Origin: Bdellovibrio sp. ZAP7
GTDB lineage: Bacteria; Bdellovibrionota; UBA1018; CAIMNF01
Reading direction: 5' to 3'
Length of the DNA stretch: 64,000 bases
Assembly (NCBI GenBank): GCA_945874535.1
Contig: CAMCGZ010000006.1
Coordinates: forward strand, 1 to 64,000
Under the pieces are notes generated by a model. That model made no database searches. It was not told the DNA's origin and saw nothing but the letters and a program-made list of their open reading frames with translations. Each line of letters starts with the position of its first letter. Positions within the stretch are counted from its first letter, which is position 1. The translations under genes were made by a program, and so were the position numbers. Positions 14,725-44,098 of the stretch are shown here, piece after piece.

Positions 14725-15171
14725 ATGAATGCTTTGAAATCGATTCTCGTTCTCAGTCTGGTGTTTTCCGCTTCCGCAGCCCGAGCTGCCGGAGGTCCTC
14801 GTGATTTCGCTCTCGAGTGCGAAGTAAGAAAGTCTGCAGACCGCATCCTGGAAGTCCGGGTGGAGCCCACCGACCTCACCGGTCAGATCTCTGCGACCAC
14901 CCTCAGCCTGAATCCGGACAACACCATTCAGCGCCTTCAGCTGGTGAGCAATGGAGACATCCGCGACGATCAGCTTTATCTGTTTGAGACCAGCGTTCCC
15001 AAAGTCGGAACGACGTTCCGGTATCTTGAAAAAATCGAAGGGCAGTACTTCATCACCCAGTACTTCCGTTGTGACGATTCCCTCGGGAACGATTACTGTC
15101 GTCCACAGAGTGACAATATCCGTTATCAGGGCAAGAGCGGTCAGCTTTCTTGCCGTTTCGTGAACCACTGA
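14725..15171 (+). CDS. Hypothetical secreted protein
   Basis: Signal-peptide start MNALKSILVLSLVFSASAARAAGG; AAGGAG-type RBS upstream. Confidence 0.65.
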   Translation: MNALKSILVLSLVFSASAARAAGGPRDFALECEVRKSADRILEVRVEPTDLTGQISATTLSLNPDNTIQRLQLVSNGDIRDDQLYLFETSVPKVGTTFRYLEKIEGQYFITQYFRCDDSLGNDYCRPQSDNIRYQGKSGQLSCRFVNH

Positions 15172-15185
15172 ATCTGGTATCGTAC

Positions 15186-15626
15186 TCAGAGTCGTTCGGA
15201 AGTGGAGTAGAGTCTTCGACTCAATTCGGTGCACATCCGGTAAAGGAAAGCCCGTTCGGCTGAAGGGTGTTTTTTCCCCCATTGCTCCAGGTGGGGCTTC
15301 TGGAGAATGATGCACACCGTTCGATCTTTAGCTACGACGTCAGCGGTGGCAGTAAAAGACACTCCGAACAGGGAGATTTCTCCGAAGAATGCTCCCCGCC
15401 CCAGAATGGCCAGCGGAGTGCCTCCTTTCAGGATCTGAGCAGAGCCTTCGACGATGACGTGGAGGCCTTTGACTCTGCCATCCTGCTCGAGCAGGGGTTG
15501 TCCCGGAGCGGTTTCTACCCGCTCTGAGGTTTGGACCAAGGCCTCGAGTGCAGGAAGCTCGATCCCATGGAAAACCTGGCTGTGGCTGAGAGCGCGGACG
15601 GTGGCTTCGATGAGTTTTTGGTCCAT
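15186..15626 (-). CDS. Stand-alone cyclic nucleotide-binding domain protein
   Basis: GQPLLEQDGRVKGLHVIVEGSAQILKGGTPLAILGRGAFFGEISLFG cNMP-binding fold. Confidence 0.82.
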   Translation of the reverse strand: MDQKLIEATVRALSHSQVFHGIELPALEALVQTSERVETAPGQPLLEQDGRVKGLHVIVEGSAQILKGGTPLAILGRGAFFGEISLFGVSFTATADVVAKDRTVCIILQKPHLEQWGKKHPSAERAFLYRMCTELSRRLYSTSERL

Positions 15627-15671
15627 ACCAAGAGGATACCTTCGGAATCAGAATCGAGGTAGGGTGTGGGT

Positions 15672-16361
15672 ATGGAATTTTTTGAAACGGTTCGGGTCAG
15701 ACGGAGTGTTCGGGCGTATACCGAGGAGGATGTTCCCGGTGAGGTGATCGAGCGCGCGCTGGATGCAGCCCTACTTGCACCGAACTCTTCCAACATGCAG
15801 ACCTGGGGTTTCTATTGGGTGAGGAGTCCCCGTGAGAAGGCCTTGTTGGTTCAGGCTTGCATGAGTCAGGGTGCCGCACGGACCGCCCGGGAATTGATCG
15901 TGGTGGTCGCAGAGCCCCGGAGGTGGAAAGAAAACCGGGACGAAATGTTGCGGAAACTCACTGCGAATCAGGCTCCGGCATTCGCACTCGATTATTATTC
16001 CAAGCTCATCCCATTCACCTACGGATTCAGATGGCTCTCACCTGTGAAATGGCTTTTGTTCAATGTGGCGGGTTGGTTTCGCCCCATGGTGCGGCGGCCC
16101 TGGTCCGGTCGGGATATCGAGGAAGTGAGTATCAAATCGGCTGCACTCGCATCAGAAAACTTCATGCTCGCCATTTCGGCACAGGGATTTTCCACTTGTC
16201 CGATGGAGGGCTTTGATGAGTCCCGAGTGCGTCGATTGCTGAAGCTGACGCGTGCAGACCGGGTGGTGATGGTGATCTCCGTGGGCAGGGAGAATCCCTC
16301 CAGAGGGATCTGGGGGCCTCAGATCCGCTTTCCGCGCGAGAAGTTCATCAAGCAGGTGTAG
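15672..16361 (+). CDS. Nitroreductase-family protein
   Basis: FFETVRVRRSVRAYTEEDVPGEVIERALDAALLAPNSSNMQTWGFYWVRS. Confidence 0.85.
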   Translation: MEFFETVRVRRSVRAYTEEDVPGEVIERALDAALLAPNSSNMQTWGFYWVRSPREKALLVQACMSQGAARTARELIVVVAEPRRWKENRDEMLRKLTANQAPAFALDYYSKLIPFTYGFRWLSPVKWLLFNVAGWFRPMVRRPWSGRDIEEVSIKSAALASENFMLAISAQGFSTCPMEGFDESRVRRLLKLTRADRVVMVISVGRENPSRGIWGPQIRFPREKFIKQV

Positions 16362-16425
16362 TCAAACTTCTGACGCTTGCCACCTTGGATTCCACCCTTC
16401 AGAATTTAAAAGGGAGAATCGATCG

Positions 16426-16653
16426 ATGAGCCAGAATCAAATGAGTCCGATCACAGGGATAATCGATGAGTCAAAGGTGATCATTGATTTCGGAAAGCAC
16501 GAGGGGGTCACTGTCAGTGAACTTCAGGTGTTGGATCCGGGTTTTTATGCCGCACTTGCCGACGAAAAGGGTGAGGGTGTTTTTGCAATTCGGAGGCACC
16601 GCGACAAAACCTTCCGCCTCTATCTGAATCCGCTTGCGCAAATGGATCAGTGA
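16426..16653 (+). CDS. Small conserved protein resembling the DUF3820/exonuclease-X C-terminal-like module
   Basis: IDFGKHEGVTVSELQVLDPGFYAAL resembles FGK(Y)xGkTvxEl..DPgYl; 16 bp upstream of the next ORF. Confidence 0.55.
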   Translation: MSQNQMSPITGIIDESKVIIDFGKHEGVTVSELQVLDPGFYAALADEKGEGVFAIRRHRDKTFRLYLNPLAQMDQ

Positions 16654-16669
16654 CCGATAACTTCGGGTC

Positions 16670-17830
16670 ATGCTTGACTCATTTCTGCGTCACGTGACCA
16701 AGGACTCTTATGGACCGGTCAGGCTCGAGGATCATGGAGAGAGCCGTTTCGTGGTCCATCGTTTTCACGATCATTTCTCGGTGTTGAACTGGGGCAGAAT
16801 GCCTGATGCCCTCGCTGGGCGCGGACGGGTTTCGGCCCTCGTGTTCTCTGTTTTGAATTCCAGGTATTGCGATTCCGAATCCTGGCGTCAGTTCCTCCGC
16901 TCACCTGAGGCACTGAGTTTCAGGAAGTCCGGTGCCTCACTCTCCCAGGGAGGAGCAGTCAGTTCCGGTTTGAACGCTCTTGCTGACGCTTTGCCCTTGA
17001 AGTCGAATTTTGCAGGATCGATCCCGGATGAGACTTTCAAGTCTTCGGTTCAAAATCAGCTTCTGCCCCGCTCCGTGTTGGTCTCGGATCCCGCGCTCCT
17101 TTACCGCGGGTCCAATTGGTATCCAGTGTGCGAACATTTCGAAGAGATCCGGATTCCCCAAGCGCTGGTCATGGGCCGTGCCAGCCACAATTTCGAGCCC
17201 TGGCGTCATGCTCGAGGGCCGAAGCGTCTCCCGTTTGAGATCGAGTGCCATTTTGAATTGAATGCTCACAGCCTCGAGGGACTCAACACAGATGCGGTCT
17301 CGATTCCCAAGACCGCCTCACTCCGGATTTTACAGGCTGGAGCGACCTTTGATTTTCCTCTGATGGAGCTGGTTCTGACGGCGGATCCGTGTGAGCGCAA
17401 GATCGGCCTCACTGAAGCTTTGGCCATCACGGGTTTCACCCCCGAACGTCTCCAGGAGTTGTTCCTCCAGGCCGCATGGGTCGCTGCATGGGCCCGTTAC
17501 CAAATCCGGGTATTCAGGCTTCATTCGGTCAGGCTCCGGTTCGGGCTTGATTCCGATGGTGCCACGGTCCTTCTCGATGCATTCGAGCCGGATGATTTGA
17601 TGCTTGAAGATCAAGGGGCGTGGATCCATCCAGGGGCATTGCTCGGTTATTACTCCAAGACCTCCTGGTATGAGGGGGTGATCCGTGCTCGCCGCCAAGC
17701 GAGCGAACTCGGTCTGACCGAATGGAAGCGCCTTTGTGTGGAGCCTGCTCCGTTCCTCGATCCGGCGGTCAAGTCGGGGTTTGAAACAGAATACCAGGGG
17801 CTTGAACGCATGATCCGGGGGAAGGTCTGA
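16670..17830 (+). CDS. Divergent PurC (SAICAR synthetase)-like protein, probably catalytically altered
   Basis: FSVLNWGRMPDALAGRGR resembles the PurC FDWGxMPDxIPGKG region; IGLTEALAITGFTPERLQELFLQAAWVAAWARYQIRVFRLHSVRLRFGLDSDGATVLLDAFEPDDLML matches the PurC C-terminal layout with key positions altered. Confidence 0.7.
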   Translation: MLDSFLRHVTKDSYGPVRLEDHGESRFVVHRFHDHFSVLNWGRMPDALAGRGRVSALVFSVLNSRYCDSESWRQFLRSPEALSFRKSGASLSQGGAVSSGLNALADALPLKSNFAGSIPDETFKSSVQNQLLPRSVLVSDPALLYRGSNWYPVCEHFEEIRIPQALVMGRASHNFEPWRHARGPKRLPFEIECHFELNAHSLEGLNTDAVSIPKTASLRILQAGATFDFPLMELVLTADPCERKIGLTEALAITGFTPERLQELFLQAAWVAAWARYQIRVFRLHSVRLRFGLDSDGATVLLDAFEPDDLMLEDQGAWIHPGALLGYYSKTSWYEGVIRARRQASELGLTEWKRLCVEPAPFLDPAVKSGFETEYQGLERMIRGKV

Positions 17831-17831
17831 G

Positions 17832-20234
17832 ATGTTCGTCAGAGTCGAAAGTGGTTTTAAGGCGGGATTCTCGGATCCCGAAGCCAAAAGAATCCATCAG
17901 AAGATCACCGAGCTCCATTCCGGAATCGGCGAGAAGGTGAGATGGATCCGCAAGTTGAATGTTGCATGGATGGAGTTCGAGGCGCCCCGTGACAAAGTGG
18001 TGCAGGCCATCCAGCATTGTTTCAAAAATCCGGTGACCGACTGGGTTTTCACCGGAGATCTCCTTCCCTCGGCGGCCGGATCCTCCGGAACCCTGTTCGA
18101 TCTGATGCAGGATTCACCGTTCCGACCAGGAGTATTTCACGGGATCGAGAAGCGGAAGCGTTTGAATGCTCATGACGAAGAAGCTCTGGTGATTTGTGAT
18201 GCCATGCAAACCGTTCTCGGGCGGAAGCATTCCGGAGATCGTGTCGTGACAGGTGAACTCATGTTGGTCGAGGGCGCCAAGTTGACCCAGTCCGATCTCG
18301 AGTGGATCGCCAGGAACTGGTTCTCACAGGAACGCCTGGAGTCCTGGTCGCTGCTCTCTGAAGAGGAACTGAAACGGAACGCGAGATTCCAATCCGAGCA
18401 GGTGGGTAAATACCTGATGAATCCCCAGCAGGCGAGCCGTTCCAGATTACTTCAATTCCGTGCTACCACTCGCGGAAGTGAGGAGCGTCCCGGCTGGTCG
18501 GGTGTAGAAAAGGTATTGCTACAGCCCTCCGGCGATTCCGGACGGGCTCCGGTCCTGATACAAGGCGAGGAGTGGAGTTTCAGGCCCGATATCCGTTTCT
18601 CGACCGGCACACTGAACGAAGATCCTCTCACGGTCACCGAGTACCAACTCTGCAAGCAGCAGTTGGAGCATCATTGCCGGCGCGGTTCAATGAGATTTCA
18701 GAGTATTCTCGGAGTCCTCCCTGAACCGACCCGTCTTTGGCGGAGTGATTTGGGAATGGAATCCCCCCTCCGGATCAGGACCGATTTCGAGACCGCGGTA
18801 GAACGGACTGCGATTGCCACCGATACGCCCATGGCCCTGATGAAGGTTTTGGAGGATGTGAACGAGACCGCCCCTTCCTATTTTTGGACTGGTAGTGTGA
18901 GTGTCCTCGACCCCAGGCTGGAGTCCCGCGGTTCGGTCGAAACGGAGTCCATTCTCGATCTGGTTTATGTCGGGCATGCGGATCAGGTCGAGCTCCGGAA
19001 TCTCGTGTTTTTCGGTAATTTGAAGGCCGCCTATCAACACGCCATCCTCGGCGAATCAATCGCGTTTTCGGTCGATACCGCCTCCAGAACATTGCTCGAT
19101 TGCTTGAAATCGGTTCCGCCCCAGGCGCAGTATGGATTTGATCTGGTGGTGGATGGTGTTTCGGAATGGCTGCGGAAGCACTTGACCGCTCCCTTGTCCT
19201 TGGGGTTCCTGTGGGGCGTGATTCCGGAAAAGCGTGATTGGTTGTTTGGTGAACTCAGGACCCGTGGCATTCCCTTCATTCACTTTGGAACGACGACTCT
19301 GACCGGAGATATCCGTGTGCTGGAAGCGGGTGAGTGCGCGGCCAAGGTGAATATCAGGGAGTTTTTTGCAAAAAATAAAGTAGTGAAGCCGGTGATCGAG
19401 GATTTGTTCTCCGAACCCGTGTATTCCGTCGATCATTTGTCCGCCCCCCGTCAGTTCCGGAACCGGTTTTCGACCGAGGAGCTGGTATTGAAGCCCGAAA
19501 TGCGACCTACTGGCGTATCACCCGTGGTGATCCGTCCAGAGCTTTCGAGTTGGTCTGGGATCGTCGTGCTGTCGGATCTGGTCGGTCTGGAGTTCAATGA
19601 AGCCAGGCTCGATTACCTTCTCCGGAAAAGCACGGCGGCGGGAGGTCAGATCCAATCCATCCAGGCTTCCTACTTGAACGGGATTCAATCCTGGTCCGCG
19701 ATACTCGGTAAACTCCAAAAGCATTTCGGGATCCTGGTCCTCGAGACTGAAGCGATCCGGAACGGTTCTATCCATGCGCATTGGTTGGCACTTCAAATCA
19801 TTTCACGCATTTCGGATGTCCGTACTGCGCGGACCGAGGAGTTCAAGTTCGTCAATGACCGCATTTATTGGCTACCCGGTGATTTCGAGCAAGCGGGAAC
19901 CCGTTGGTTGGCCGGATTCGAGGGGCGCTATCAAACCGGACTCCACAGTGCCATTGCGATCGAGTCGAGTGAATCAGGCGATGAACCCGCTGTGAAAGCA
20001 CTGATTAGTGCCCTGCTTAAGCGCCGGCTCGGGGCGGACGTCCGTCTTCAGCACCATTTCCCAGGCGGCTTCTTTGTCAGCGTGAGTGAGAATGAGCGCT
20101 TCGCTGTTGAAGAAGAATGGAGGGTGGTCGGTGTGGAATACGAATTTGTCGGACGGATCACGACTTCGCCTTATCTGGTCATCCGGGACGACGAAGACCG
20201 TGTGAAAACCATCGCCATCGAGGATCTTGCATGA
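17832..20234 (+). CDS. Divergent PurL (FGAM synthase)-like protein with N-terminal PurS-like repeats, probable pseudoenzyme
   Basis: N-terminus VRVESGFKAGFSDPEAKRIHQKITELHSGIGEKVRWIRKLNVA and GVFHGIEKRKRLNAHDEEALVICDAMQTVLGRKHSGDRVVTGELMLVEGAKLTQSDLEWIAR; AIRS_C-like end GFFVSVSENERFAVEEEWRVVGVEYEFVGRITTSPYLVIRDDEDRVKTIAIEDL; canonical PurL catalytic motifs not found. Confidence 0.7.
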   Translation: MFVRVESGFKAGFSDPEAKRIHQKITELHSGIGEKVRWIRKLNVAWMEFEAPRDKVVQAIQHCFKNPVTDWVFTGDLLPSAAGSSGTLFDLMQDSPFRPGVFHGIEKRKRLNAHDEEALVICDAMQTVLGRKHSGDRVVTGELMLVEGAKLTQSDLEWIARNWFSQERLESWSLLSEEELKRNARFQSEQVGKYLMNPQQASRSRLLQFRATTRGSEERPGWSGVEKVLLQPSGDSGRAPVLIQGEEWSFRPDIRFSTGTLNEDPLTVTEYQLCKQQLEHHCRRGSMRFQSILGVLPEPTRLWRSDLGMESPLRIRTDFETAVERTAIATDTPMALMKVLEDVNETAPSYFWTGSVSVLDPRLESRGSVETESILDLVYVGHADQVELRNLVFFGNLKAAYQHAILGESIAFSVDTASRTLLDCLKSVPPQAQYGFDLVVDGVSEWLRKHLTAPLSLGFLWGVIPEKRDWLFGELRTRGIPFIHFGTTTLTGDIRVLEAGECAAKVNIREFFAKNKVVKPVIEDLFSEPVYSVDHLSAPRQFRNRFSTEELVLKPEMRPTGVSPVVIRPELSSWSGIVVLSDLVGLEFNEARLDYLLRKSTAAGGQIQSIQASYLNGIQSWSAILGKLQKHFGILVLETEAIRNGSIHAHWLALQIISRISDVRTARTEEFKFVNDRIYWLPGDFEQAGTRWLAGFEGRYQTGLHSAIAIESSESGDEPAVKALISALLKRRLGADVRLQHHFPGGFFVSVSENERFAVEEEWRVVGVEYEFVGRITTSPYLVIRDDEDRVKTIAIEDLA

Positions 20235-20965
20235 ACAAGTACCGAGCATTGATTCTGAATTCCCCGGGCGCACGCGGAGAGCGCTTTTTCATACAGTCTT
20301 TGAACCTGGCGGGATTCGATCCAGAGGTGCTCGATGTCCAGGGCGTTCTAGACTACCGGATCGATATGGAGCAGCTTTGCCTGAAGTACCGACTGGTTGT
20401 TTTACCGGGTGGAAGTCCCTACTCCTCCATTCTCGGAGGAGGGAAGGCTCTCGCGCTCAAGATCGAGCATGCTTTCCGTTGGAATCTTTCAAAGTTCGCC
20501 GAACGTGGTGGACTCGTCCTCGGAGTCGGAACCGGATTTCAGACCCTGTTGCACCTGAAAGTGTTCGGTGAAGATTATACGCTCAGGACCAACCCGACCG
20601 CCCAGGTTCAGGAACGCTGGGTGCGGGCGATTCCGAGCGGGAACCGTTGTGTCTGGTTGAAGGGGCTGGGTGCTCTCGATCTGCCCGTCAACATGACCGA
20701 TACCGAGTTTGTCATCGAACCCGGAGCGATGGTCGAGGCCCGCGGCAAGCTGGAAAGATTGGGCATGGCTTGCCTGAAATCTTCCGATCAAGAGCAGGTT
20801 CTCGGGCTCTGTGATCTGACCGGTCGGATCCTCGGGATGCAGCCCCATCCTGAATACTTTCTCAGTTGGATCCATTCTGAAGACTGGGTGCTGAATCCCA
20901 CCCGCGCAGCCGCCCCCGGACAGGGGCTTCCCCTGTTCGAAAACGCTGCCAAATCATTGGAGTGA
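20231..20965 (+). CDS. Divergent PurQ-like class I glutamine amidotransferase lacking the catalytic Cys
   Basis: ALILNSPGARGERFFIQSLNLAGFDPEVLDV, VVLPGGSPYSS, LVLGVGTGFQTLLHL (PurQ consensus GxCNGxQ), GMQPHPEYFLSW; ATGA overlap with upstream PurL-like ORF. Confidence 0.78.
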   Translation: MNKYRALILNSPGARGERFFIQSLNLAGFDPEVLDVQGVLDYRIDMEQLCLKYRLVVLPGGSPYSSILGGGKALALKIEHAFRWNLSKFAERGGLVLGVGTGFQTLLHLKVFGEDYTLRTNPTAQVQERWVRAIPSGNRCVWLKGLGALDLPVNMTDTEFVIEPGAMVEARGKLERLGMACLKSSDQEQVLGLCDLTGRILGMQPHPEYFLSWIHSEDWVLNPTRAAAPGQGLPLFENAAKSLE

Positions 20966-22264
20966 TCACTTCGCCCAGTAATCCTCGTCCAGGCTCTCCT
21001 CACGCTCGGGGAGTCCCCGGAAAAGTCTCGGAGAGTTCCGGGAGAGGATTTCGAAACTGACACGATTCGAATACTTGCAGATTTGTGAGAGGGACGAGTA
21101 AGTCAGATAGTTCGCAGCGTGTTTCGGTGAATTGGGAATCTTCATCCTGTGATAACGGTTGGCCGCCATATCATGGAGCAGGGCTGCGAGTGCTCCATCA
21201 CCGGCACCGTTGGTGTTCCGGATCACCACGGGACCGCCCATGAAAGGATTGATGTGGGAATAGATCCGGATCGGATCCTCGCAATCCGACTGCCTCATGG
21301 CCCGCGAGTATTCGTAGAGGTTGTAGTTCACAATCGACTTGGTGTGAAGCTCGTGTTCGGTCCGTCTGGCACGCTTCCTGTCGACATGCCCCCCCACATA
21401 GAGTCCTTGCGCTCCAACTGTCAGCAGAACCATGTCGGTGAGTTCGAGGGTTTTTTCCAGAGAGAGGAGGGGATCTTCTATCCCGGTGAGGGCTATGGCC
21501 TCCTCGTGGTTCATGGCAAGCACGTTGACGTGATTCCTGATGAACTCGATAAAGAAATCCTTTTTCTCGGATACCAATGCGCTCGTACCCAGCGTGAGAA
21601 CTATCGGAACGCCGGCCCGCCGTGCGATCTCGCAGGCTTTCAGTGTCGAGCGGGAAATCGGCCAGTTGGAATCTCGGAGAATGTAGGCCGATATCATCAG
21701 CGCGCAGGATTTCTCGATGATGGTCGCGGGGATGTGGTCCTCGGAAAGCTCGTTCATGCAGCCTTTCGAAATTCCGAAAGTCCGTTCCCCGTCGGGAGTG
21801 ATGAAGCACATGGCCCTGCCCATCGGAGAGTCGCATGGTTGGAGGTGGTTCAAGTCCACTTTGGATGAGGTCGATGCGATGTACTTGAATGCGTAGTCTC
21901 CCACATTGATCTTCTGGGAGATCGCACCGATCAGCACCGCGCGCTCGTCCGAAAGAACGCAGAAATTATGGAGGGTGTTACCCACGGTACCACCGGCGAA
22001 CTCGCCCGTGATCCGACCCGCGAGTTTCAGTTTCTGGTACATCAGGTCCGCGAGCTGCTCGTCCACGAGCTGGCTTTGTCCTTTGATCAGACCGTGCTCT
22101 GCCAAAAACGCTTCGTCCACCGTGCACTCGATATCGACCAGGAGCTGGTCGATTCCGACCACATGGAAAGACTCGTCTGCGGTGAAATTATGATCGATGT
22201 TTCCGCGGTCTTTTTCCGTGATCGGGAAATAGTGTTTGCTCTTCCGTCTGCCGGGGAATTTCAT
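20966..22264 (-). CDS. gsk: Inosine/guanosine kinase
   Basis: MKFPGRRKSKHYFP N-terminus, VVGIDQLLVDIE, FAGGTVGNTLHN, NTNGAGDGALAALLHD, SPRLFRGLPEREESLDEDYW very close to E. coli Gsk. Confidence 0.95.
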   Translation of the reverse strand: MKFPGRRKSKHYFPITEKDRGNIDHNFTADESFHVVGIDQLLVDIECTVDEAFLAEHGLIKGQSQLVDEQLADLMYQKLKLAGRITGEFAGGTVGNTLHNFCVLSDERAVLIGAISQKINVGDYAFKYIASTSSKVDLNHLQPCDSPMGRAMCFITPDGERTFGISKGCMNELSEDHIPATIIEKSCALMISAYILRDSNWPISRSTLKACEIARRAGVPIVLTLGTSALVSEKKDFFIEFIRNHVNVLAMNHEEAIALTGIEDPLLSLEKTLELTDMVLLTVGAQGLYVGGHVDRKRARRTEHELHTKSIVNYNLYEYSRAMRQSDCEDPIRIYSHINPFMGGPVVIRNTNGAGDGALAALLHDMAANRYHRMKIPNSPKHAANYLTYSSLSQICKYSNRVSFEILSRNSPRLFRGLPEREESLDEDYWAK

Positions 22265-22288
22265 GGGGGGAGGCTAGCGCGGTTGGGC

Positions 22289-22918
22289 TCAGATGGAAAG
22301 GGGGATTTTTGTTCGGATGAGGTGGGTTTTTCCCGATTTCGGATGAGGAAATTCAAGGGATTGGGCCTGGAGCATGAGTCGGGGCTCTTTTTTGAAAAAG
22401 CCGGTCCAGGACTCCGGATTTCCATATAATGGATCCCCGACCAGGGGGTGTCCGATCTGATCGAAGTGGCGCCTGATCTGGTGGAACCGTCCGGTATGGG
22501 GCATCACCTCGACCAGTGTCGCCCCACGGGAGTGTTTCAATGCGCGGTAATCGGTCCGGGCAGGTTCTGTTTCCTTTGATTTGTGTTTGCGCAAAGGGGT
22601 TTTGATCGAACCGGATCCCGACAATTCACCCGTGCACCAGGCGGAGTAGGTTTTTTTGACCCGATGCTCGCGGAATGAGCGAATGAGGCTCGAGGCGCTT
22701 TTCGGATCGAGGGCGAAGACCACCACCCCCGAAGTGTCCGCATCAATGCGGTGTACGGGGAAGAGTCTCTGGTTCAGTTGCTCTTCGAGTAATTCTTTGA
22801 GGCCCCCATCCCCCCGACCGTGCGACTCCCCGTAAGTCGTTATCCCCTCCGGCTTGTGTGCGGCAAGGAGCTGTGCGTCCCGGTACAGGAGCTTAAGGGT
22901 GGGGGATTTAGGGTTCAT
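22289..22918 (-). CDS. RluA-family pseudouridine synthase
   Basis: VHRIDADTSGVVVFA catalytic Asp motif, HTGRFHQIRRHFDQIGHPLVGDPLYG. Confidence 0.9.
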   Translation of the reverse strand: MNPKSPTLKLLYRDAQLLAAHKPEGITTYGESHGRGDGGLKELLEEQLNQRLFPVHRIDADTSGVVVFALDPKSASSLIRSFREHRVKKTYSAWCTGELSGSGSIKTPLRKHKSKETEPARTDYRALKHSRGATLVEVMPHTGRFHQIRRHFDQIGHPLVGDPLYGNPESWTGFFKKEPRLMLQAQSLEFPHPKSGKTHLIRTKIPLSI

Positions 22919-22974
22919 CGAGGTTCCGTCCTACTCCACTATACACCACACGGTGCTTGAGCTAAACTCCCGTT

Positions 22975-24225
22975 ATGCACCTTTCTGAGCGGTCCAGCGG
23001 TTTTGTCGATCTCGAGAACGCCTTTGGCGGAAAAAACTATGCTCCACTTCCTGTGGTGCTTTCTCGCGGGAAAGGGGCCCGTGTCTGGGACGTTGACGGA
23101 AAAGAATATCTGGATTTCCTATCTGCCTACAGTGCGGTCAATCAGGGGCACTGCCACCCCAAAATCGTGGGCGCGCTCCGGGATCAAGCCGAGAGACTCA
23201 CGCTGACCTCCCGTGCCTTTTACAACGATCAGCTCGGACCCTTCGAAGCATGGCTTTGCGGGTTGCTGGGTTTCGAACGGCTGATTCCCATGAATTCGGG
23301 TGCCGAGGCTGTAGAAACCGCCATCAAGCTTGCGCGTCGTTGGGGCTATGATGTGAAAGGTGTTCCTCAGGATCGAGGCAAAGTCATCGTCTGTTCGGGG
23401 AATTTTCACGGCCGGACCCTCGGAATCATTTCCGCTTCCACCGACCCGGCTTCGAGAGGGGGCTTCGGGCCTTACCTGCCGGGCTTCATCACGGTTCCTT
23501 TCGGTGATCTCGAGGCACTTGAGAAGGCGCTCGAGGATCCGGATGTCGTCGGGTTCCTGTTCGAGCCCATTCAGGGAGAAGCCGGGGTGGTGGTTCCTCC
23601 GGAAGGGTATCTTTCCGGTGCTTCGGCCTTGTGCCGAAAGGTCAGGGTGCTGTTCATCGCCGATGAGGTGCAAACCGGTCTTGCCCGAACCGGAAAAATG
23701 CTGGCCTGTGATTATGAGCAGGTGAAACCGGATCTTCTGATTTTGGGGAAAGCGCTTTCTGGCGGGATCCTGCCGGTTTCTGCCGTGCTCGGTTCTTCTG
23801 AAGTGATCCTGACCATCCGTCCCGGTGAGCACGGCTCCACTTTCGGCGGTAACCCTTTGGCATGTGCTGTCGCACGGGCGGCTGTCGAGGTTTTGCTCGA
23901 TGAAAAACTCGCAGAAAGTGCCTTTGCTTCTGGAAAAGTGTTCCGAGAGCGGCTCTCGTCCTTGAATTCCCCCTTGATCGAAACCGTCCGGGGAAAGGGC
24001 TTGCTGAATGCCATCGTGATTCGTCCCCATGGTGATAACGGAAAGGGCGGCAAGCGAACGGCCTATGATCTTTGTCACGAACTCGCCGAGCATGGGGTTC
24101 TGGCCAAGCAGACCCAGGTCCACACCATCCGGTTCGCTCCTCCGTTGGTCATCACCGGACCTGAAATGGAGCAGGGGCTTTCGGTCATTGAATCCGTTCT
24201 GAAGCGGGCGGCGGAGTCACTGTGA
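22975..24225 (+). CDS. rocD: Ornithine aminotransferase
   Basis: NYAPLPVVLSRGKGARVWDVDGKEYLDFLSAYSAVNQGHCHPKI; PLP motif LLILGKALSGGILPVSAVLG; GEHGSTFGGNPLACAVA. Confidence 0.94.
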   Translation: MHLSERSSGFVDLENAFGGKNYAPLPVVLSRGKGARVWDVDGKEYLDFLSAYSAVNQGHCHPKIVGALRDQAERLTLTSRAFYNDQLGPFEAWLCGLLGFERLIPMNSGAEAVETAIKLARRWGYDVKGVPQDRGKVIVCSGNFHGRTLGIISASTDPASRGGFGPYLPGFITVPFGDLEALEKALEDPDVVGFLFEPIQGEAGVVVPPEGYLSGASALCRKVRVLFIADEVQTGLARTGKMLACDYEQVKPDLLILGKALSGGILPVSAVLGSSEVILTIRPGEHGSTFGGNPLACAVARAAVEVLLDEKLAESAFASGKVFRERLSSLNSPLIETVRGKGLLNAIVIRPHGDNGKGGKRTAYDLCHELAEHGVLAKQTQVHTIRFAPPLVITGPEMEQGLSVIESVLKRAAESL

Positions 24226-34700: not shown

Positions 34701-35392
34701 GTCGGAGCGGCGGGCTTCCTTACCACTTGAAGGCGCTTCTGTACCGGAAATCGCTCTGGAGGGTTCATGAGCAGGCGACACGGAGCTTCTTGGAGCGCTG
34801 GAATCCTTCGGAGAAAGAATTGATTCTGATCGGACCCTCCGGCGGGTATTCGATTCCAGTAGGATGGCTCGCACATTTCGACCGGATATCGGCTTACGAA
34901 CCGGATCTGTTGGCACGGAAGATATTTGAAAGGCGTCACGGGATGAAGCCTGACTGGAGAGGCCGTTTTTTCCCCTTCGGGAAACCGGGAGCATTGAAGG
35001 CTTTTTCCGGGTCGGCTGTTCTGTTTTCGAATTTGCTCGGACAAATCGAGATCCGGAATGTCCGGAAGCTCGGAGCCTGGCTGGAAGAGGAGTTGCAGGG
35101 TTTGACCTGGGCGTCTTTTCATGACGCGCTTTCGGGTTATGGAATCGACTTTGACACAGAGGATGCTGGTAGGGAGCGTGCGTTACTCCCCGTCATGAAG
35201 CGGTGGATCCATGTCCGGAATCCCGGAGTCGGCAGGATCGAAGTCCTCTCTCACGAAGCACCGGACTTGTTCGCCAGTTTTAAGAATCTCCAGTACAGTT
35301 ATTGGCAATGGACCCTCACTCCCGGGCACACTTTCCTCACAGAGGGCGTGTTTCCAGGTAAAGTGTCGGTGCCGGAGGATGAATCATGTTGA
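34697..35392 (+). CDS. Hypothetical protein, possible SAM-methyltransferase-like Rossmann fold
   Basis: ILIGPSGGYSIPVGWLAHFDRISAYEPDLLARKIF resembles motif I plus acidic loop; ATGA overlap with murB. Confidence 0.5.
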   Translation: MSRSGGLPYHLKALLYRKSLWRVHEQATRSFLERWNPSEKELILIGPSGGYSIPVGWLAHFDRISAYEPDLLARKIFERRHGMKPDWRGRFFPFGKPGALKAFSGSAVLFSNLLGQIEIRNVRKLGAWLEEELQGLTWASFHDALSGYGIDFDTEDAGRERALLPVMKRWIHVRNPGVGRIEVLSHEAPDLFASFKNLQYSYWQWTLTPGHTFLTEGVFPGKVSVPEDESC

Positions 35393-37062
35393 AAGCGAGA
35401 ATGGATGCGGCCCTCGGCAAAACGCCTTGTGATTGGGTGATTCGCGGGGTGCGTTACCTCGATGTGTTTTCGTGCGAGTGGCGTACGGGTGATGTGGCTC
35501 TGCATTCGGGAGTGGTGGTCGCACTCGATCCGGGTCTCAAAGCGGTCAGGGAAGTCGATGGACGAGGGAGGTGGCTCGTTCCCGGCTTTATCGATGCCCA
35601 TGTCCATGTCGAAAGCTCCCTCGTGGTCCCCTCCAACTTCGAGCGGAGTGTGCTGCCTCTCGGCACCACGACCGCGATTTGTGATCCACACGAGCTGACC
35701 AATGTCCTTGGAACAGGAGCGCTCCGTTATTTTCTTTCCGAGGCCGAGCGTCTGCATCTCGATCTTCGAGTGATGCTTTCATCTTGTGTTCCGGCCACAC
35801 ATCTGGAAACCAATGGAGCCGGTGCGGTATTGGCCCGGGACCTCCTTCCGTTCAAGTCCCACCCGAAAGCACTCGGTCTTGCCGAGATGATGAATGTCCC
35901 TGGGGTTTTGAATGGAGATCCCGAGGTGCACGAAAAGCTCGAGGCTTTTCAGGATCGGCCCCTCGACGGGCATGCTCCGCTTCTCACAGGAGGTGCTCTT
36001 TCGGCCTATGCATTGTGCGGGATCTCGAGTTGTCATGAATCCTCGGAGCTGGAAGAAGCGCGCGAAAAACTCACCAAAGGCATCGCTGTCTGGATCCGGG
36101 AGGGGAGTGTGGCCAAAGATCTTCATGCACTGGCGAGTCTGGTCACGCAGGCCTCCTCTTCCTGCCTCGGTTTTTGTACGGACGATCGGAATCCCCTCGA
36201 CATCGCCCAAGAGGGACATCTCGATCATCTGATCCGCGAGTCGATCCGTCTCGGGGTGGATCCTCTGGCTGCCTACCGTGCGGCTTCTTATGGTGTTGCA
36301 GTTCACTACGGACTGACTTCCGGGCCCGATCGGGTTGGAGCCATCGCTCCCGGGTTCCGGGCTGATCTGGTCCTTCTCGATGATGCGGCAACGTGTTCCA
36401 TCCGCACGGTGTTCAAGCGCGGGATTCCGGCAAACGAGTTGAATTGGGCTGGAAACGTGACCGGAAAACCGGAGCAGACCATCCATGCCGATCCCGTGAC
36501 CGAGATCGATTTGCAAGCCGTTACCGGAAGAGTGCATGTGATCGAAGTGATTCCCGGTAAAATCATCACGGGACGGTCGGTCAGGAATCATTCGGATCCG
36601 GGTGTTGCCCGTCTTTCGGTGATCGAGCGTCATGGCAAGAAGGTTAAGCCAGCCAATGCCTGGGTGTCCGGATTCGGAGAGGGTCTCCGGGGCGCGATTG
36701 CATCCAGTGTCGGTCATGACAGCCACAACCTGATTTGCGTTGGTGACGAGCCTCGCTCCATGGCCATCGCGGTGAATGCTCTCAGGCAAATGGGTGGCGG
36801 GTTTGCCGTGGTTCGCGGGGATCAGGTCCTGGCTTCGCTCGCCTTGCCGATGGGAGGGCTCATGTCGCTCGAAGATCCAGCCCGGATCGAGCAGGGGCTC
36901 GTGGCCCTTCGGGCTGCAAGTCGGGAAATCGGCTGTGCTCTGCCCGAGCCATTTTTACAGCTCGCCTTCCTGAGTCTTCCGGTGATTCCGTCCCTCAAGT
37001 TGACGGATCAAGGCTTGGTAGACGTGGACCAGTTCGCAATCATCGACGTGAGAGCGTCCTGA
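35386..37062 (+). CDS. ade: Adenine deaminase
   Basis: WLVPGFIDAHVHVESSLVVPSNFERSVLPLGTTTAICDPHELTNVLG; VSGFGEGLRGAIASSVGHDSHNLICVG. Confidence 0.95.
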   Translation: MLKARMDAALGKTPCDWVIRGVRYLDVFSCEWRTGDVALHSGVVVALDPGLKAVREVDGRGRWLVPGFIDAHVHVESSLVVPSNFERSVLPLGTTTAICDPHELTNVLGTGALRYFLSEAERLHLDLRVMLSSCVPATHLETNGAGAVLARDLLPFKSHPKALGLAEMMNVPGVLNGDPEVHEKLEAFQDRPLDGHAPLLTGGALSAYALCGISSCHESSELEEAREKLTKGIAVWIREGSVAKDLHALASLVTQASSSCLGFCTDDRNPLDIAQEGHLDHLIRESIRLGVDPLAAYRAASYGVAVHYGLTSGPDRVGAIAPGFRADLVLLDDAATCSIRTVFKRGIPANELNWAGNVTGKPEQTIHADPVTEIDLQAVTGRVHVIEVIPGKIITGRSVRNHSDPGVARLSVIERHGKKVKPANAWVSGFGEGLRGAIASSVGHDSHNLICVGDEPRSMAIAVNALRQMGGGFAVVRGDQVLASLALPMGGLMSLEDPARIEQGLVALRAASREIGCALPEPFLQLAFLSLPVIPSLKLTDQGLVDVDQFAIIDVRAS

Positions 37063-42980: not shown

Positions 42981-43060
42981 GGTCTCCAGTCTAGGACTTG
43001 GACAGGGAAGGCTTCCAGAAAAAACCACTCGGCGTTCGCTTTTGTGTTAGGTTTCAGCGC

Positions 43061-44098
43061 ATGTCGCCACGTTATTATTACTCCCTTTGTCAAACCGGGG
43101 CTGAGAAAGCCATGCGCGAAGAGATCTTGAATGAGTTTCCGGATCTCAGGTTCGCATTTTCCAGACCGGGCTTTGTGACCTTCAAGCAAAAGGACGACGG
43201 AGGAGGGGATTGGGTCCATTTCACCCGTTCCGTATTTTCGAGGGTCTTCGGGACCAGTGTGGGACAGTCGAAGGATCAGGCAGCCTTGGAGGCCCTTCTT
43301 GAGTTGATTCCCGAAGGGGCTCCTGTTCATGCATTCGATCGTGATGTTTTTGTCCCGGGTGACGAACCTGAAGGTTTTGTCGAGGACTCCGGGATTCACG
43401 AGGAACTGAAGGGGGTGTCTCATTCACTCAATTTCAATTTGAAGCCGGTCGAAGGGCAGCCGGTTTACGATCTGATCCGGATCGATCCCGGGCACGTTTT
43501 TCTCGGTTTTCATCGCCACTCCGGTGCTTACCTTCCTTTTCCGGGAAATCGGACGGGACTCGATGTCCCCGCTCATTCTCCTTCCCGCGCCTGGTTGAAG
43601 CTCGAGGAGGCCCTTCTCCGGTTCAAGCCTGCAATCCGTTCCGGAACCGAGGTGCTCGAGGTCGGTTGTGCGCCGGGTGGAGCCACCACGGCGATGCTCG
43701 ATCGTGGATGGAAGGTCACCGGAATCGATCCGAAGAAGATGGATGCTTCCCTCGACAAAAAAACGGATTTCCGGCTGATCCGCAAGCCGGCCAAAGAGGT
43801 GAAGCCTGAGGATCTCAGTGCAGTGAATCCACGTCTGATCGTCCTCGATATGAATCTGGCCCCCTTGGAAACGCTGGATGAGCTCGAACACGTGGTACGT
43901 ACCCTCAGGTTGCTTCACGGGAAGCGCCTGGCTCTCACCCAAGGCTTACTCACCATCAAGTTGAATGACTGGAGATTTGCCCATCACGTACCGCTGTACC
44001 TCAAACGGATCCGTGAGCTCGGTTTCATGGAGCTGACTGCTCGTCAATTGTGCTCGAATCGTCAGGAATTCTTCGTATTCGCCAACGGATTCAAATAA
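43061..44098 (+). CDS. RlmM/FtsJ-like 2'-O-ribose RNA methyltransferase
   Basis: SPSRAWLKLEEALLRF...VLEVGCAPGGATTAMLDRGWKVTGIDPKKMD; N-terminal THUMP-like region. Confidence 0.82.
   Translation: MSPRYYYSLCQTGAEKAMREEILNEFPDLRFAFSRPGFVTFKQKDDGGGDWVHFTRSVFSRVFGTSVGQSKDQAALEALLELIPEGAPVHAFDRDVFVPGDEPEGFVEDSGIHEELKGVSHSLNFNLKPVEGQPVYDLIRIDPGHVFLGFHRHSGAYLPFPGNRTGLDVPAHSPSRAWLKLEEALLRFKPAIRSGTEVLEVGCAPGGATTAMLDRGWKVTGIDPKKMDASLDKKTDFRLIRKPAKEVKPEDLSAVNPRLIVLDMNLAPLETLDELEHVVRTLRLLHGKRLALTQGLLTIKLNDWRFAHHVPLYLKRIRELGFMELTARQLCSNRQEFFVFANGFK

Follow-up and report, generated by a model that had tools for sequence, protein, structure and literature searches.

A catalytically degenerate PurL–PurQ set of Bdellovibrionales, probably kept for a non-catalytic second function

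Why would a bacterium keep a glutaminase-like protein whose catalytic nucleophile has been replaced? The question is raised by a PurQ-like gene in a 64,000-nucleotide stretch of a Bdellovibrio sp. ZAP7 contig (CAMCGZ010000006.1; the whole stretch is hereafter "the window"), which belongs to a genome of 2.4 Mb that is 96% complete (G000). Bdellovibrionales, the order in which the gene is followed below, includes known predators. We propose that the preserved unit is a dead FGAM-synthase complex, rather than a single odd PurQ, and that the complex is probably kept for a second, non-catalytic function. The features of the locus are collected in Table 1.

Table 1. Features of the PurC–PurL–PurQ locus and other annotated genes, in positions of the window
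Feature	Position	Strand	Remarks
PurC (SAICAR synthetase)-like gene, decayed	16670..17830	+	NCBIfam match to PRK13959.1-4 under the cut-off, E 7.5e-7
PurL (FGAM synthetase large subunit)-like gene, 800 aa, catalytically degenerate	17832..20234	+	
PurL N-terminal domain, residues 1–200	17832..18431	+	best-conserved part common to live and dead copies
Signature insert, residues 67–102, PVTDWVFTGDLLPSAAGSSGTLFDLMQDSPFRPGVF	18030..18137	+	native PurL copies only
PurQ (GATase_5)-like gene, nucleophile Cys to Gly	20231..20965	+	ATG 20231, stop 20965, 244 aa
Gly100 at the nucleophile position, codon gga	20528..20530	+	
His-Pro-Glu (HPE) of the former catalytic dyad, residues 206–208	20846..20854	+	
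gsk, inosine/guanosine kinase (purine salvage)	20966..22264	-	PRK15074 602 bits against 367
Adenine deaminase	35386..37062	+	TIGR01178 520 bits (cut-off 472.5)
RlmM-like 23S rRNA methyltransferase	43058..44095	+	below equivalog cut-off, 43.5 against 176 bits

The PurQ-like protein has the class I GATase fold: it matches Pfam GATase_5 with 83 bits (E 2e-23; cut-off 27), and its AlphaFold model (pLDDT 87) aligns in Foldseek with the GATase domain of FGAM synthetases (TMq 0.78–0.85). It resembles PurQ (TIGR01737; T. maritima 3d54_D, TMt 0.84) in this match, in fold, in the HPE and in its place behind PurL, but differs in carrying Gly for Cys, a changed Asn and a changed oxyanion strand, and it scores far below the equivalog cut-off (46.4 bits against 177.8). 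The elbow is RGGLVLGVGTGFQTLLH, with a core that reads GVGTG. As an earlier note on this DNA had claimed, the nucleophilic Cys of a PurQ glutaminase is replaced by Gly, the adjacent Asn is Thr in the translation, and the HPE is kept. In an alignment of 57 sequences, all catalytic PurQs and the PurL of E. coli have Cys in the nucleophile column, and no alternative Cys falls in the elbow of the PurQ-like protein. The HPE is retained in most orthologues, with the variants DPE (G003) and RPE (G028/G040). The oxyanion strand has changed from GGFSFGD to GGSPYSS; this strand and the elbow Gln differ among congeners (PSGN, TGGN, SGFE, NGLL).

A sequencing error at the Gly100 codon was considered and ruled out, given that Gly is also present in two independent MAGs (L033 and L034; 94% identity) and in nine further congeners. 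Across the genus, every one of the 12 genomes has Gly at this position. Since these genomes use all four Gly codons (GGA, GGC, GGG and GGT), it is the residue Gly itself that is maintained.

The decay extends to the two upstream genes. The PurQ-like start overlaps the stop of the PurL-like gene in an ATGA, an arrangement of translational coupling. In the 800-aa PurL-like protein the sequence signal is near nil: profile searches returned a weak PurS match and no AIRS or AIRS_C match in Pfam, the catalytic KVETHN motif is absent, and a sequence-only PDB search found no match, so that a fold search was required. The AlphaFold model (pLDDT 80) does show the overall fold of PurL, its best Foldseek matches being whole FGAM synthetases (4lgy, E 2.9e-28, TMq 0.58, 11% identity). 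Its homologues in other Bdellovibrionales are PurLs of ~1040–1060 aa, encoded in the same gene order; it is orthologous to the intact ones and ~240 aa shorter than its native relatives. Compared with FGAM synthetase PurL (Salmonella 1t3t/4lgy; AIRS, AIRS_C, FGAR-AT_linker), it shares the predicted fold over its whole length, but has neither the AIRS/AIRS_C match nor KVETHN, and carries a lineage-specific insert of 36 residues in its N-terminal domain. Among native PurLs in which the region is covered, live and dead copies alike carry the insert consensus WxFTG[ND]L[IL]PSAAGxxGxxxDLxxxxPxRPGxF or a close variant (G018 would be an exception if its copy is native); the insert is absent from second-copy PurLs, from E. 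coli, and from G018, G014 and G019. The PurC-like protein matches PDB 1kut weakly (E 0.002), has lost the RGSxKD and SKEF motifs of its catalytic relatives, and gives no PF01259 match. PurC is also the less constant member of the set, being not found in g15 or in the dead locus of G010.

The pathway that these proteins once served is gone. In G000 we found no purH, no purD, no second GATase_5 and no purF, for which there is a weak match to the amidotransferase part only (98 bits against 350). The absence of purF, purD and purH recurs in eight congeners, and neither they nor G000 contain a SAICAR synthetase (PF01259) above cut-off; an AIRS_C domain is likewise missing from the PurL-like proteins of these nine genomes; purM is also counted as missing, and one AIRS_C protein of G000 lies on another contig. 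Because purF, purD, purH and SAICAR synthetase are missing, the organism is, judged by gene content, most likely a purine auxotroph. The gsk and adenine deaminase genes of the window are consistent with purine salvage; gsk is the convergent neighbour of the PurQ-like gene in the genus. In genomes of this kind, annotations of purQ, purL and purC would falsely point to purine synthesis. The earlier note had described a selective loss of the nucleophile, which proves too narrow, given that Thr has replaced Asn, the oxyanion strand, PurL and PurC have changed, and the pathway has been lost. As a separate observation, G022 (L113) is without purF and purD but keeps purH and a catalytic-looking PurL/PurQ, possibly reflecting an early stage of pathway loss or the use of salvaged intermediates.

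Across Bdellovibrionales, Gly was found at the PurQ nucleophile in five of the lineages sampled, taking in the window's genus (g1) plus g15, g17, g34, g18 and g19 of family f2, while Cys is found in E. coli and in every PurQ copy that accompanies an intact PurL. Of 22 Cys genomes, 21 have an intact PurL motif, against none of the 22 Gly genomes, in all of which it has decayed (Fisher p 2e-11, from a table compiled by hand and with relatedness ignored). Likewise, the purine pathway relies on the native set in 21/23 Cys genomes and in 0/21 Gly genomes. Indeed, no genome with Gly depends on the native set for its purines: each has either lost the pathway or carries a second, catalytic set. Stages of decay can be seen: g17 is transitional, with Gly in PurQ and a PurL motif that is partly changed (KVETHNSASALEPFGG) and has decayed further in G053; G033 keeps the PurQ Cys beside the PurL motif KVEAHDSP; and in the sister genus (G012) the PurQ copy is far more decayed still.

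Eight genomes carry a second catalytic purine set beside the dead copy (G002, G005, G010, G012, G029, G030, G035 and G044). The PurL and PurQ of these second sets share genome and pathway with the dead copies, but differ from them in having the Cys, a motif that is intact where covered, no N-terminal insert, and positions on separate branches of the PurQ tree. The missing insert and the separate branches suggest that the native purine operon was replaced more than once, perhaps by horizontal transfer.

The change to Gly itself arose more than once. On the rpoB tree, Gly requires at least four changes, and the AU test rejects grouping all Gly lineages in one clade (p-AU 0.004); for the three Gly groups of f2 alone, separation is not significant (p-AU 0.074), and G054, the fifth Gly group, gave no rpoB match. 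At least two origins are thus firm by the AU test, and four is the best estimate from the best rpoB tree. In the PurQ gene tree, the window's genus groups with some of the f2 Gly copies. The placement of decayed copies in gene trees is unreliable, and the genomes are largely draft assemblies; since the grouping is possibly long-branch attraction, origins were counted on rpoB.

Pathway loss would be expected to remove the genes, yet PurL and PurQ outlive their chemistry in separate lineages. Native PurL is present in 19 of the 21 genomes that are without purF, purD and purH. The two exceptions are G013 (97% complete), which has lost the whole set, and the incomplete G049 (71% complete), in which none was seen; on account of these two, the retained function is not universally required. 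No stops or frameshifts occur in the PurL-like and PurQ-like genes of the congeners; the PurL-like gene of G003 is split by a contig break only. Against close relatives, dN/dS is 0.015–0.019 for PurL-like, 0.010–0.022 for PurQ-like and 0.083 for PurC-like, compared with 0.016–0.025 for gsk and 0.010–0.018 for mdh, sucC and sucD, all of these values being approximate at a dS near saturation. The PurL-like and PurQ-like proteins are probably pseudoenzymes, in that the predicted fold is kept, the catalytic residues are lost and purifying selection persists. Such strong selection on intact dead genes suggests that the complex has a second job.

Where does this selection act? Live PurLs are best conserved in their AIRS core. 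When the dead PurLs of f2 are compared with live ones, core identity is 0.20–0.45, against 0.50–0.60 at residues 1–120 and 681–720 (window numbering). Of the residues that are invariant in live copies, the dead PurLs of g15, g18, g19 and g34 keep 18–20 of 20 at N-domain positions 61–130 and 20–21 of 21 at positions 901–1000 (G038 numbering), against as few as 12/61 and 12/68 in the core. In the window's genus, where alignment through the decayed core is uncertain, PurL identity is 0.27–0.50 at residues 201–560 versus 0.59–0.79 at residues 1–200; here the C-terminal block has drifted too, leaving the N-domain as the main shared constraint. A model of this domain, scored mostly on native copies outside the model alignment, gives means of 302 bits for dead PurLs, 320 for live ones and 40 for other PurLs. 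Constraint has shifted onto PurQ and onto the N-terminal domain of PurL, insert included.

These patterns bear on what maintains the set. Slow neutral decay, by which the genes would be pseudogenes of a lost pathway awaiting deletion, is very unlikely: the catalytic motifs do go progressively, with g17 at an intermediate and g1 at an advanced stage, and the flanking genes of the pathway have disappeared, but the reading frames are free of stops and frameshifts at a dN/dS of 0.01–0.03, like gsk and mdh; the same two PurL regions are constrained in separate lineages; and purF, purD, purH and purM of the same pathway were removed. Continued help with purine synthesis, for example through ammonia-dependent FGAM synthesis, would fit the conserved purC-purL-purQ order, but is barely credible for a PurL without its catalytic motif in a genome that, like eight congeners, is missing purF, purD, purM and purH.

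Two further readings give the dead proteins a ligand or a reaction. The Cys-less PurQ pocket could bind intact glutamine and report on nitrogen or purine status by way of the N-domain of PurL, a proposal to which most dead copies lend something by keeping the HPE, as do g15 and g17 by keeping GGFSFGD-type strands and GNGFQ; PDB entry 4wio, moreover, describes a Cys mutant of a related GATase crystallised with glutamine. We consider such a sensor unlikely, and the variation of the oxyanion strand and elbow Gln within the genus makes a conserved glutamine site unlikely here. The same variation divides the earlier note's suggestion of a retained fold or binding without glutamine hydrolysis: a fold without the glutaminase nucleophile holds up, whereas glutamine binding without hydrolysis finds little support in this genus. 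A new enzyme activity, in which the ATP-binding scaffold of the PurL and PurC remnants would work on another substrate without glutamine, seems quite unlikely; the whole 800-aa fold is predicted to be kept, and the C-terminal HDxSDGG and FGEGFH persist in the dead copies of f2, but no part of the PurL-like protein is less conserved than the AIRS core, even within the genus, and HDxSDGG is lost in g1.

Retention of a pseudo-FGAM-synthase complex for a second function remains the reading that we favour. The PurQ-like protein would be the PurQ subunit of an FGAM synthase native to Bdellovibrionales that in this lineage no longer makes FGAM. Loss of de novo purine synthesis, as read from gene content, would have allowed catalytic sites to decay in PurQ (Cys), PurL (FGAR/ATP core) and PurC, while PurL and PurQ would have been kept as a folded, co-translated, non-catalytic complex, an association to which homology and the gene overlap point. 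The remaining role would fall mainly to the insert-bearing N-terminal domain of PurL, along with PurQ, and would not depend on ammonia transfer. The insert probably makes the relevant contact, and the complex would most likely serve as a module for binding, scaffolding or regulation. Gly may keep the fold at the strained nucleophile elbow once catalysis is unneeded, which would be why it recurs there. More tentatively, the native PurL–PurQ of most Bdellovibrionales families may have an order-level second function, unrelated to purines and residing in the N-domain insert and PurQ, that is needed widely enough to outlast pathway loss or replacement and exists as hidden moonlighting in catalytic relatives; we regard this broader version as possible rather than probable. 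The natural separation-of-function series of live, intermediate and dead copies could reveal such moonlighting of FGAM synthase in Bdellovibrionales.

The closest parallel comes from viruses: the vGATs of gamma-herpesviruses, PFAS homologues that lack the catalytic residues, have a non-metabolic role and act by recruiting host PFAS (PMC10820379). Both cases involve retained, dead FGAM synthase homologues, but those described here are cellular, are split into PurL and PurQ, and occur in bacteria without an active copy; common descent of the role is not claimed. No published description of a dead PurL–PurQ set was found in the papers searched.

The surroundings of the locus were also surveyed. 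There is no Rfam match (riboswitch or known RNA) in 15000–23500, the promoter and terminator scan at the locus did no better than shuffles, and PADLOC gave no match for the PurC-like, PurL-like or PurQ-like protein, which is not the picture of a known defence family. No conserved neighbour hints at the function of the native set. An AddAB-like nuclease/helicase lies 3' of several f2 loci and was dropped as a functional link, as it also follows intact operons; AddAB-like genes are not adjacent to the cassette in the window's genus. Among individual neighbours, G028 carries a Hint-domain protein directly 3' of a transitional PurQ, on the opposite strand (L112:11189-12457), and G002 encodes a 912-aa DUF6600 protein between gsk and a pseudouridine synthase (L096:8243-10978).
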